Assembly (NCBI RefSeq): GCF_900115125.1
Contig: NZ_FOVJ01000001.1
Location: 186,001-250,000 of the forward strand
DNA length: 64,000 nt
DNA from: Nitrosospira briensis
Lineage (GTDB): Bacteria > Pseudomonadota > Gammaproteobacteria > Burkholderiales > Nitrosomonadaceae
Reading direction: 5' to 3'
The stretch's first letter is position 1; every line of letters begins with the position of its first letter. The notes under the pieces are model-generated. The model ran no database searches, was not told the DNA's origin, and worked only from the letters and a program-made list of their open reading frames with translations. The translations under genes were made by a program, and so were the position numbers. Positions 29,504 through 33,004 of this stretch are shown here, one piece after another.

Positions 29504-30382
29504 CTACCGGTTCCTGCCGGAATCTGTTTTCTGCTTTCCCGACCAGTCACGTGCAAACTGCCATGCCACGCGCCCGCTTCGGGAACCGCGCCCTAGCGCC
29601 CACTGCAGTGCGGCTTCACGCGTTGAACGGCTCATTTCTTCGATACCAAAGTAGCTTAGCCAATACTCGGCAATATTCAGGTATTGCTCCTGGTCAAAGG
29701 GGTAGAACGATACCCACAGGCCGAAACGTTCCGATAGTGAAATTTTCTCTTCGACTGCTTCGCTCGGGTGGACCTCTTCGCCTATATGCCTGGTGTTCAA
29801 ATTATCCTGCATGGATTCGGGCATCAGATGACGGCGATTGGAAGTCGCGTAAACCAGAACATTTTCGGATGCTGTGGCGATGGACCCGTCCAGTACCACC
29901 TTTAATGCCTTATAGCCGGGTTCACCCGATTCAAACGAGAGATCGTCGCAATACAGGATGAAACGTTCAGGGCGCCGGTATATTTGTTCGACGATGTCGT
30001 GCAGATCGGTCAGGTCATGTTTTTCCACTTCGATCAAACGTAACCCCGCTGCCGCATACTTGCTCAGCATTGCTTTCACCAGGGACGACTTTCCTGTTCC
30101 GCGCGCTCCGGTGAGCAGCACGTTGTTGGCGGGACGGCCCTGAACGAACTGATGCGTATTTTGATCTATGAGATTTTTTTGCCGCTCGACGCCTCGTAAA
30201 GCGTCGAACGCGATGTGATGAGCGTGGGTGACCGGTCGAATGAATCCTCTGGACCCATTTTTTCGCCAGCGGAACGCCACCGCGGCCTTCCAGTCGGGCT
30301 CAGACTGCTCACCCGGCAGCAGTTCTTCCAGACGGGAGAGTAATTTTTCAGCCTGATTGTATAGCTTGTCCCAGTCCTTCAT
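29504..30382 (-). CDS. DUF815-family AAA ATPase
   Basis: A 292-residue P-loop ATPase. Walker A is GARGTGKSS, Walker B is RFILYCDDLSFE, then a sensor-like VYATSNRRHLMPE. DUF815 proteins are commonly annotated simply as ATP-binding proteins; the target is not known. MKDWDKLYNQAEK at 30382 is preferred, with GGAAG just ahead; the longer frame starts at 30418. It is commonly found between argJ and the MutT/ThiE gene, as here, except that an unrelated plus-strand gene sits between argJ and it. Confidence 0.82.
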   Translation of the reverse strand: MKDWDKLYNQAEKLLSRLEELLPGEQSEPDWKAAVAFRWRKNGSRGFIRPVTHAHHIAFDALRGVERQKNLIDQNTHQFVQGRPANNVLLTGARGTGKSSLVKAMLSKYAAAGLRLIEVEKHDLTDLHDIVEQIYRRPERFILYCDDLSFESGEPGYKALKVVLDGSIATASENVLVYATSNRRHLMPESMQDNLNTRHIGEEVHPSEAVEEKISLSERFGLWVSFYPFDQEQYLNIAEYWLSYFGIEEMSRSTREAALQWALGRGSRSGRVAWQFARDWSGKQKTDSGRNR

Positions 30383-30797
30383 ACACTTCCATATTAACAT
30401 TCGATTATAACAAATCATGCAACAGAACGATTATCCGGAGTAATTGCTCATTCAAGCACTACGGTTTACTTCGCAAGCATATTTCATTTTTTTACCTTCC
30501 CGATTTTATTCCAGCGCGGGTGGATGGCGAGCATGGTCGTGGATGATGGAAACACGGCGCCGAACTGCCCATCATTATGTGTGCTATCGAACGGAACCGC
30601 TCAGCTAAGAAGGTCATGATACGGCATGTTACGTCAGGCGTATCCAAGGTACCGCAGCTTCGGTGCTCACCGTAACAGGCTGTAAATTTAAACAGAGACA
30701 CAGAAGATAGAATCTTTGATGGGGGCGCGGCAATCGGTTAACGCCTGCTTTCCCGAAGGTTTCTTTAAATGAAGCAAAACATTTAGGAGAAGACATC
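30383..30797. other. Intergenic region before the EF-hand gene
   Basis: About 415 bp. It must contain the DUF815 promoter and that of the divergent EF-hand gene. I see AT-rich patches (about 30465-30500 and 30680-30710) but no convincing promoter pair, RNA or repeat. Confidence 0.4.
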
Positions 30798-31352
30798 ATG
30801 AATATGCCCAGTAAAAAGTCGATTATTTCGCTCGCGATAGGATCCGCCGTTGCCGCGACTTTCGGTACTGCATCGATCGCCTCGGCGGGTGAGAATCCTT
30901 TCGCTGCACAATCCCTGGAAAAAGGCTACATGGTGGCCGAGTCTCATTATCACGACAAGGACCAGTATGGCGACAAGAAGGACAGCTATGGTGACAAGAA
31001 GGACAGCTATGGTGACAAGAAGGGCGACAAGAAGTATGGCGAAGGACGCTGTGGAATGTCCATGGCGGATACCGATAATGATGGACGAGTCAGCAGGGAT
31101 GAACATGCGCGCCATGCTGAAACAATGTTCGATAAGATGGATGCCAACAGGGATGGGTATATTGATAAGGATGAGGCAAACAAGATGAAGAGGAAGCACG
31201 GTCATGGTCATGGCCATGGGCATCGTGATAAATACGGCTCGGGTGACCGTGGTTACGACAACGACGGGGTATCAATAAAACGGGACCGTGAATATGGAGC
31301 AGGCGAAGAGGTAAACCGTGATTTGCCCCATATGCGCCAAATGGGACAGTAA
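30798..31352 (+). CDS. Secreted EF-hand protein with HvfA/bufferin-like features
   Basis: A 184-residue exported protein. Signal peptide about 1-30 (ending ASIASA), followed by GENPFAAQSLEKGYMVAE, like the segment after the signal in HvfA-type metallophore precursors. Next is a Lys/Asp/Gly/Tyr repeat (YGDKKDS units, about 57-79), a single EGRCG motif with the only cysteine, Cys85, then two canonical EF-hand loops: DTDNDGRVSRDE (91-102) and DANRDGYIDKDE (115-126). A His-rich HGHGHGHGH tract (134-142) follows. It should bind calcium and perhaps transition metals. AGGAG precedes the ATG. No MNIO (DUF692) or DUF2063 partner is in the window. Confidence 0.7.
   Translation: MNMPSKKSIISLAIGSAVAATFGTASIASAGENPFAAQSLEKGYMVAESHYHDKDQYGDKKDSYGDKKDSYGDKKGDKKYGEGRCGMSMADTDNDGRVSRDEHARHAETMFDKMDANRDGYIDKDEANKMKRKHGHGHGHGHRDKYGSGDRGYDNDGVSIKRDREYGAGEEVNRDLPHMRQMGQ
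30966..31037 (+). repeat. 21-bp tandem repeat inside the EF-hand gene
   Basis: Two near-identical 21-bp units starting TATGG(C/T)GACAAG at 30966 and 30987, a partial third at 31008 and a further GGCGACAAGAAG copy. They encode YGDKKDS units. The repeat could change copy number by slippage without shifting the frame. Confidence 0.85.
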
Positions 31353-31511
31353 GAGAATTTTCGTTGGCGGTTGCGTAGCTCGTGCCAGGGCAATGAATGG
31401 GATAGCCCGGGCCGGAGTCGAATTGACTACGGCTGGTGCGCAGAAGACGCAACCGCTTGCTCGCCTATATTGATGCCTTCAGCGTTTCATGCGGTCGACT
31501 CTGGCCGATCG

Positions 31512-32750
31512 TCAGCTTCGATAATCCGCATTGATTTTTACATAATCATAGGATAGATCACACGTCCAGACGGTCGCTGATGCCTGTCCTCTGTTCAAGA
31601 CGACGCGCACGGTGATTTCAGATTGCTTCATCACTCGCTGGCCATCTTTTTCCAGGTAATCGGGAGCTCTGCCCCCATTCTCCGCGACCAGCACATTATC
31701 GAGATAGAGCTGCAATTTATTGACGTTCAGGCCGTCTATGCCCGCATAGCCGATAGCTGCAAGTATTCGTCCCAGATTTGGATCAGATGCAAAAAAAGCG
31801 GTCTTGACCAGCGGTGAGTGGGCAATGGCATACGCCGCTTTACGGCATTCATCCGGCGTCTCGCCGCGCTCGACCTGAATGGTGATGAACTTGGTAGCGC
31901 CCTCTCCATCGCGTACGATAGCTTGAGCCAGCTGTGCCGCAACTTCGGTGATTCCCTCTTGCAGCAGTGCAAATTCGGCGCTTTCTTTAGCCGTGATGGC
32001 GGAATTTCCGGCTTGGCCGGTTGCGATCAGAATGAATGCGTCATTGGTTGACGTATCTCCATCCACAGTGATTCGGTTGAACGAGTTTTCGGCTGCATGG
32101 CTCACGATTTCCTGGAGCAGCGGCTGGCTCAAGGCAGCGTCGGTCGCGATATAACTCAACATCGTCGCCATGTGCGGACGAATCATCCCTGAACCTTTGG
32201 CAATGCCTGTGATGGTTACGGTTGTGCCGTCGAGAGTGATCTGTTTCGACACTGCCTTGGGTACGATATCGGTCGTCATGATTGCCTGGGAGGCAATAAA
32301 CCAGTTTTCCGCCTTCAGGTCTGCTACCGCTGCGGGCAACCCGGCAAGAACGCGCCCCAGTGGTAGCGGCTCCATGATCACACCGGTGGAAAACGGCAGA
32401 ACCTGGCGGCTGTCGCAGCCGAGCAACCGGGCAGTCTCAAGGCATGTGGCGCGAGCGTCCGCGATCCCGCCCTCGCCTGTGCCTGCGTTGGCATTGCCGG
32501 TGTTGACTACCAGCGCGCAAACAGGATATGAGGCATCTACATTTAAAAGATGTTCTTTAGCGATAATTACGGGCGCGGCGCAAAAATCGTTTTGTGTAAA
32601 AACGCCGGCTACCTTTGCGCCTTCATTCAGCCTGATTACAAGCAGGTCACGCCGGCCCGGCTTCTTGATGCCGGCTTCCGCGACGCCCAACGTTACGCCT
32701 TCTATTGGCAGCAGTTGCTCGGGTACTGGCGGTGTAAAGTTGACTGGCAT
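31512..32750 (-). CDS. argJ: Bifunctional ornithine acetyltransferase / N-acetylglutamate synthase
   Basis: A 412-residue ArgJ. The self-cleavage site is in [13 protein letters not shown], where the chain is cut before Thr196 to give alpha and beta subunits and expose the nucleophile. Also seen: [26 protein letters not shown] and the terminal ADYRS. It recycles the acetyl group between acetylornithine and glutamate and can make N-acetylglutamate. MPVNF at 32750 is preferred; an in-frame Met lies four codons earlier. Other arginine genes (argD, argF, argG) are 17 kb away. Confidence 0.95.
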
Positions 32751-33004
32751 AATAGGAATCACGAAAGTTTAATAAAGTGTTGCGGCTCTCAATCAAAACA
32801 GCATGATCATGTAATCTCCCGCCCATAACGCTTTGCCTTTGTCTTTGGATTGGAAAGGACGCGTTACAGAAATAACGCGCTATGCTAACTTATCTTTGAT
32901 CCTTCGCATATTTTCCCTGATTTTAAATGTTCCAATGTTCTCATCGTCATGGTAAAAAACAGAACTTGATGACAAATTGGTAATCAGGAGTTGAGAGGAA
33001 ACCC

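Follow-up and report, generated by a model that had tools for sequence, protein, structure and literature searches.

The locus and the encoded protein

The window, a stretch of 64,000 nucleotides from Nitrosospira briensis, carries a small plus-strand gene between genes for a DUF815 AAA ATPase and ArgJ (Table 1). The ORF is preceded by AGGAG. Its product of 184 amino acids combines a signal peptide and leader tail with a variable linker, one EGRCG core, two EF-hand loops, a histidine-glycine tract and a C-terminal motif. Cys85, within the core, is the sole cysteine of the protein. Both EF loops are canonical 12-residue loops of the form D-x-[DN]-x-D-G-x-[VI]-x-x-x-E. A search against EF-hand models returned Pfam EF-hand_5 (E 4e-10) and EF-hand_1 (E 6e-9), and the two C-terminal EF-hand_5 stretches score 39.1 bits with PF13202 (cut-off 25.9). 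The ORF, the Pfam matches and the alignment agree with a preliminary description of the gene as encoding an EF-hand protein with an HvfA-like leader and a single EGRCG. A lanmodulin identity was rejected, the match being weak (24.8 bits against a cut-off of 135).

Across positions 30380-31560, no RNA family was matched at E≤1. A sigma-70 promoter scan gave no plus-strand promoter-like site upstream of the EF-hand gene, and a terminator scan gave nothing terminator-like.

Table 1. Features of the locus, in positions of the window
Feature	Position	Strand	Basis and remarks
DUF815 AAA ATPase gene	29504-30418	-	E 9.4e-106; conserved neighbour
Palindromic element ATGTGTGCTATCGAACGGAA, core GTNCGNTANCGNAC; candidate regulator site	30577-30596	+	Alignment of the upstream regions of 23 orphan genes
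Orphan gene for EF-hand HvfA-type precursor, 184 aa	30798-31352	+	ORF; profile and orthologue searches
Sec-type signal peptide, residues 1-30	30798-30887	+	Cleavage after ASA by eye; unusually conserved
Leader tail GENPFAAQSLEKGYMVA, residues 31-47	30888-30938	+	68% mean identity in orphans; same tail in hvf-linked precursors
Low-complexity linker with YGDKKDS-type repeats, residues 48-80	30939-31037	+	38% mean identity; sequence and length differ between species
EGRCG core, residues 82-86	31041-31055	+	EGRCG in 23/23 orphans; Cys85 codon at 31050-31052
EF-hand loop 1 DTDNDGRVSRDE, residues 91-102	31068-31103	+	Pfam matches and alignment
EF-hand loop 2 DANRDGYIDKDE, residues 115-126	31140-31175	+	Pfam matches and alignment
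HGHGHGHGH tract, residues 134-142	31197-31223	+	Length and number of His species-dependent (alignment)
C-terminal motif LPHMRQMGQ, residues 176-184	31323-31349	+	Genus consensus about L[PQ]HM[KR]PMGE
argJ	31512-32762	-	E 3.2e-143; conserved neighbour

Conservation of the orphan gene in the genus

An orthologue with the EGRCG motif is present in all 23 genomes of the genus, taken to be Nitrosospira in the wide sense; the same genes also occur in Nitrosospira and Nitrosovibrio records. DUF815 and argJ both flank the gene in 21 of the 23, and in G018 and G002 one neighbour is seen, near a contig end. Among 14 other genomes of the family, DUF815 directly abuts argJ (within about 30 bases) in ten, four (G025, G026, G031 and G034) have no DUF815 within 1.5 kb of argJ, and none has a match to the orphan at the argJ locus. 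From this distribution, the gene most likely entered the spot between DUF815 and argJ in the ancestor of the genus. The preliminary description had the gene interrupting an argJ-DUF815-mutT order. Its neighbours are indeed DUF815 and ArgJ, with a Nudix/MutT gene beyond DUF815 in the window, but the interruption is a fixed feature of the genus. Orthologues in every genus genome, together with the dN/dS ratio given below, exclude a chance or artefactual ORF and confirm a genuine gene.

In a tree of 67 rows, drawn with midpoint rooting, all 23 orphans fall together in a single group (100/99). Their neighbours are EF-hand precursors, mostly multi-core, from the same genus and from genus g2. A single EGxCG is found in 21 of the 23 orphans. 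The G018 protein has two EGRCG motifs followed by one EF pair, and in G005 the whole unit of EGxCG and two EF loops is present twice. In G002 and G016, the orphan is followed by a further, degenerate copy (L018:2380-2736 and L019:2416-2826), in which the leader and C-terminal motif are kept and the EF hands and core Cys are lost; the one in G016 includes a long HG tract.

HvfA profiles and the hvf cluster

Against the HvfA and bufferin NCBIfam profiles, the 184-aa protein gives no match at E≤1, in a search whose HMMER filters discard most matches above about 0.1; the HvfA models NF050188 and NF050137 are among those left unmatched. The resemblance to HvfA that had been noted by eye is thus not borne out by direct profile comparison, and what supports it comes through homologues. 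The operon with hvfB and hvfC that marks HvfA is likewise not seen here, the orphan having DUF815 and argJ as neighbours. As had been said earlier, neither an MNIO nor a DUF2063 gene adjoins it; the matches in its own genome are on contig C11 and at 513 kb of contig C10, about 300 kb off.

On contig C11, an MNIO gene (PF05114, E 4.6e-106) adjoins a DUF2063 gene, and NCBIfam names the pair HvfB (433 bits, cut-off 360) and HvfC (272 bits, cut-off 142). This HvfB rules out a genome without an MNIO enzyme, on which the earlier reading would have foundered. The cluster also encodes a 74-aa HvfA with three EGKCG motifs that passes NF050137 (24.1 bits, cut-off 19.5). Between this gene and hvfB, directly before the hvfB-hvfC pair, lies a gene for a single-core EF-hand EGRCG precursor that is 56% identical to the 184-aa protein over residues 3-130. 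A further EF-hand relative, in G017 (L064), passes the HvfA repeat profile itself (27.3 bits, cut-off 19.5). Since the modifying genes are on another contig, the orphan protein would have to be modified in trans. All 23 genus genomes have both an MNIO and a DUF2063 gene, and each of the 23 hvf loci holds at least one EF-hand EGxCG precursor.

A second MNIO-like protein of 494 aa is encoded at C10:513159-513794 (L002) and scores above the Pfam cut-off. It was set aside as a modifying enzyme because it matches five NCBIfam models without reaching the cut-off of any and because each of the 22 other genus genomes has one MNIO match only.

Constraint on Cys85 and the leader

In the aligned orphans, E82, G83, Cys85, G86 and the ligands of the EF loops do not vary, and the Cys85 codon is TGT in 19 and TGC in four. 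The fetched loci contribute 31 further EF-hand precursors from the genus, of which 22 are single-core, and nine from genus g2; EGxCG is kept in all of these rows too. For the 46-codon block of core plus EF pair, 95 of 253 orphan pairs are saturated at synonymous sites; the unsaturated pairs have a median dS of about 1.5 and a dN/dS of about 0.06.

Mean pairwise identity among 21 orphans is 77% in the signal peptide, 82% in the EF pair and 38% in the linker. The signal peptide is therefore nearly as conserved as the EF domain, unlike those of the few control secreted proteins (two), at 63% against 84% identity (cytochrome c1) and 48% against 78% (the second). Judged from these alignments, Cys85 and the leader are under strong selection. 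HvfBC is reported to prefer HvfA that carries its signal peptide (PMC13419390), and the pattern fits an orphan signal peptide that doubles as a recognition leader, as for HvfA.

Absence of enzyme and cysteine in a sister genus

The sister genus g4 encodes an EF-hand homologue in seven of eight genomes, G062 having none. The core Cys is absent in all seven homologues, which read EDKYG, GGGYG or GGKYG at this place, and no HvfB-type enzyme was found in the seven genomes. The EF region is kept, with loop 1 altered in some, and the leader is eroded in several. An MNIO match occurs in G028 and G062 and in none of the other six genomes. Both of these genes adjoin a sigma-factor-like gene and a precursor of the DUF2282 kind, assigned by profile match in G028 and by sequence likeness in G062. 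G028 has an MNIO enzyme and a homologue without Cys, though the enzyme sits with the DUF2282 precursor.

The g4 genomes are 72 to 99% complete, which makes single absences uncertain. Four of the seven homologues were placed in the tree, nearer to the hvf-linked precursors than to the orphans. The Cys may have been lost in one or two evolutionary events, so the seven cases are not seven independent tests.

Four proteins from g2 and g4 (L080:2430-3056, L073:4804-5361, L082:1924-2514 and L083:1915-2505) join an HvfA-type leader to a different C-terminal part that is alike among them. L080, the one protein of these that was scanned, gave an LTXXQ (Spy-type) match.

A palindromic site upstream of the orphan

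A palindromic site of 20 bp lies about 200 bp before the orphan start. It is found at no more than one mismatch in all 23 orphan loci, from which the pattern itself was derived. At up to two mismatches, the fetched stretches of 23 hvf loci and 30 other loci contain none, and there is none near the hvf cluster of N. briensis. The N. briensis genome has 31 sites, against four for a reversed control pattern. Summed across the genus, the counts are 618 and, for the reversed pattern, 70; the site is enriched in 22 of the 23 genomes, which have 16 to 37 copies each. The exception is G017, with two sites in total; its orphan still has one, at one mismatch. No enrichment is seen in the 14 other genomes of the family (28 sites against 22 reversed).

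Thirty of the 31 sites in N. briensis were inspected, and ten downstream proteins were scanned with profiles. Those passing cut-offs are hemerythrin, DUF326 (Cys-rich), SDR, BON, OsmC and beta/gamma-crystallin proteins; one of the ten has a cNMP-binding match below cut-off and three have no match. Several further sites precede small secreted proteins rich in Gly, Ser and Gln, and some lie inside genes or have no clear gene after them. We read the site as the mark of a putative stress regulon, with the orphan apparently controlled apart from the hvf operon. A literature search with the letter strings of the site gave nothing relevant, by title and the start of the abstract, among the papers listed.

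A weaker copy in the window, at 1814-1834 (three mismatches to a longer pattern), precedes a gene for a secreted beta/gamma-crystallin protein at 1976-2488. The beta/gamma-crystallin fold often binds calcium.

Predicted structure

An AlphaFold2 model built from 27 sequences is confident only in the EF region (pLDDT about 79-89 for residues 91-130). Confidence is low beyond the EF pair, and the mean pLDDT is 54.6. Helices are predicted at residues 100-114 and 124-134, with none entering loop 1; the EGRCG falls within an unstructured stretch where that helix would be. Fold comparison gave EF-hand proteins as the top PDB matches, at Z of at most 4.7, and points to nothing beyond a possible EF hand.

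Relation to known precursors

The closest described class is the Buf_EGKC|EF-hand_5 chimaera of Antoine et al. 2025 (PMC12452194). The orphan shares with it a signal peptide, a short EGxCG domain and two EF-hand_5 domains; in the 184-aa protein, the N-terminal signal (by eye) and the short EGxCG domain are present and the 17-residue repeats are not. MNIO and DUF2063 genes occur in the same genome, as in the class, unlinked to the orphan. That paper covers the class as a whole, and its main text does not contain "nitroso". Compared with the class as described there, the orphan has its own features: a site fixed throughout the genus, no more than one core in 21 of the 23 proteins, an extra repeat linker, a His tract, an HM..MG tail and a separate stress-type upstream site. 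The paper also reports, in general terms, precursors unlinked to MNIO genes, and leaves open whether enzymes encoded at a different locus modify these or whether they go unmodified.

In Pseudomonas, the gene for the EF-hand protein EfhP (PA4107) occurs with DUF692 and DUF2063 genes, while the P. fluorescens homologue is not adjacent to such genes (PMC4053335). The likeness of EfhP to the orphan is one of description, and the account given there concerns calcium.

The HvfA/oxazolin and fontiphorin families (captophorins) resemble the orphan in leader type, in EGxCG and in the presence of HvfB and HvfC in the genome (PMC13097082, PMC13419390). They have several repeats, whereas the orphan has one motif plus EF hands and no direct HvfA profile match. 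Captophorin chemistry is the formation of 5-thiooxazole (PMC13097082). With two-repeat substrates, FonBC tolerates Arg before the Cys and calls for a small residue to follow, and a FonA shortened to a single EGKCG repeat was left unmodified in vitro when one with two repeats was modified (PMC13097082).

Two proteins of Luteimonas and Pseudoxanthomonas (L122:5001-5483 and L123:4992-5426) have EGKCG repeats on either side of an EF-hand pair and look intermediate between HvfA and the EF-hand chimaeras.

Literature searches gave no paper on Nitrosospira with EF-hand or with DUF692. Among the matches listed from 2026 on, "captophorin" appears only in PMC13097082, which has no "EF-hand". The orphan, its fixation in the genus and its upstream site were not found in print, in part among the matches listed. 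The EF-hand EGxCG precursor is thus a known kind, and the orphan, which stands alone and is apparently under its own control, is an unusual variant of it.

Proposed modification in trans and alternatives

We lean towards an account in which the orphan gene encodes a stress-controlled, single-site protein of HvfA type that is modified by HvfBC in trans. The protein would be a free-standing HvfA/oxazolin-type precursor with a C-terminal EF-hand pair, expressed from the stress-type regulatory site and apparently apart from the hvf operon. HvfB and HvfC, made from another contig, would act in the cytoplasm, where they would recognise the conserved Sec leader and turn the EGRCG cysteine, Cys85, into a copper-binding 5-thiooxazole, a step in trans that we consider reasonably probable. 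The modified protein would then be exported and its EF pair would bind calcium, giving, with the His- and Met-containing tail, a small periplasmic metal-binding protein. On this account the protein would bind both copper and calcium and would have a protective role under stress.

This account is supported by the single cluster that unites HvfB, HvfC, HvfA and the 56%-identical EF-hand precursor, by the joint presence of orphan, MNIO and DUF2063 genes in every genus genome, and by the EF-hand EGxCG precursors of all 23 hvf loci. The retention of EGxCG (23/23 orphans, 31/31 in the genus, 9/9 in g2), the low dN/dS of the core-plus-EF block, and the seven g4 homologues lacking both HvfB-type enzyme and core Cys point the same way. 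The conserved signal peptide agrees with the HvfBC preference (PMC13419390), the EGRCG sequence with the Arg tolerance of FonBC (PMC13097082), and the site in all 23 orphan loci and before stress-type genes with stress control. The account is weakened by the missing direct HvfA match, by the one-repeat FonA result given that the orphan protein has one site, by the grouping of the g4 rows with linked precursors and the small number of loss events, by the MNIO of G028, and by the incompleteness of the g4 genomes and the low AlphaFold2 confidence outside the EF pair.

The single EGxCG also speaks for a somewhat unlikely alternative, in which the orphan protein goes unmodified and serves as a stress protein that binds calcium in the periplasm. 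Cys85 would then be a free thiol or metal- or disulphide-bound, and the HvfA-like leader would reflect ancestry only. The unmodified one-repeat substrate (PMC13097082), the lack of linkage to hvf and the apparently separate regulation all suit such a protein, and the g4 homologues, in which the EF region persists although both Cys and HvfB are missing, indicate that the EF part can serve alone. It accounts poorly, however, for a leader that persists in the orphans but has eroded in several of the g4 homologues, for the invariance of E82, G83 and G86 along with Cys85, and for a single-core EF-hand precursor directly before hvfB in the same genome.

Metal binding could instead reside in the HGHGHGHGH tract and the C-terminal HM..M, as a histidine-rich buffer for Ni, Zn or Cu in which EGRCG and EF hands are secondary. 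At least 90% of 21 orphans share His 138, H178 and M182 are invariant in the 21 aligned, and the degenerate G016 paralogue retains its long HG tract after losing Cys and EF hands. The tract is nevertheless variable, and almost gone from the orphan of the same genome (G016, L019), while Cys85 and the EF ligands are invariant, which makes this alternative very unlikely. The degenerate tandem copies in G002 and G016 might also suggest that the orphan arose as a duplicate of the hvf-linked precursor and is now non-functional and decaying. Given that EGRCG and the EF loops are present in 23/23, that dN/dS is about 0.06 and that the upstream site and ribosome-binding region are conserved, decay is extremely improbable.

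Modification in trans can be extended to a bolder and, in our judgement, unlikely proposal. The EGRCG Cys stands six residues ahead of the first calcium ligand, where the entering helix of EF hand 1 is expected. A 5-thiooxazole placed there might couple copper capture to calcium loading. HvfBC would make such a two-metal switch in trans, and a stress regulon specific to Nitrosospira, marked by a palindromic site of its own, would deploy it.

Significance

The orphan offers a test of whether MNIO-unlinked precursors are modified from another locus or never (PMC12452194). With one HvfB-HvfC pair, this genus has linked substrates of one core or several as well as orphan substrates of a single core, and the sister genus g4, in which enzyme and cysteine are both missing, provides a natural comparison. 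The host is a soil ammonia oxidiser, and ammonia oxidation depends on copper. If the orphan protein is modified, one EGxCG site would suffice, and a thiooxazole could be attached to a calcium-binding module.
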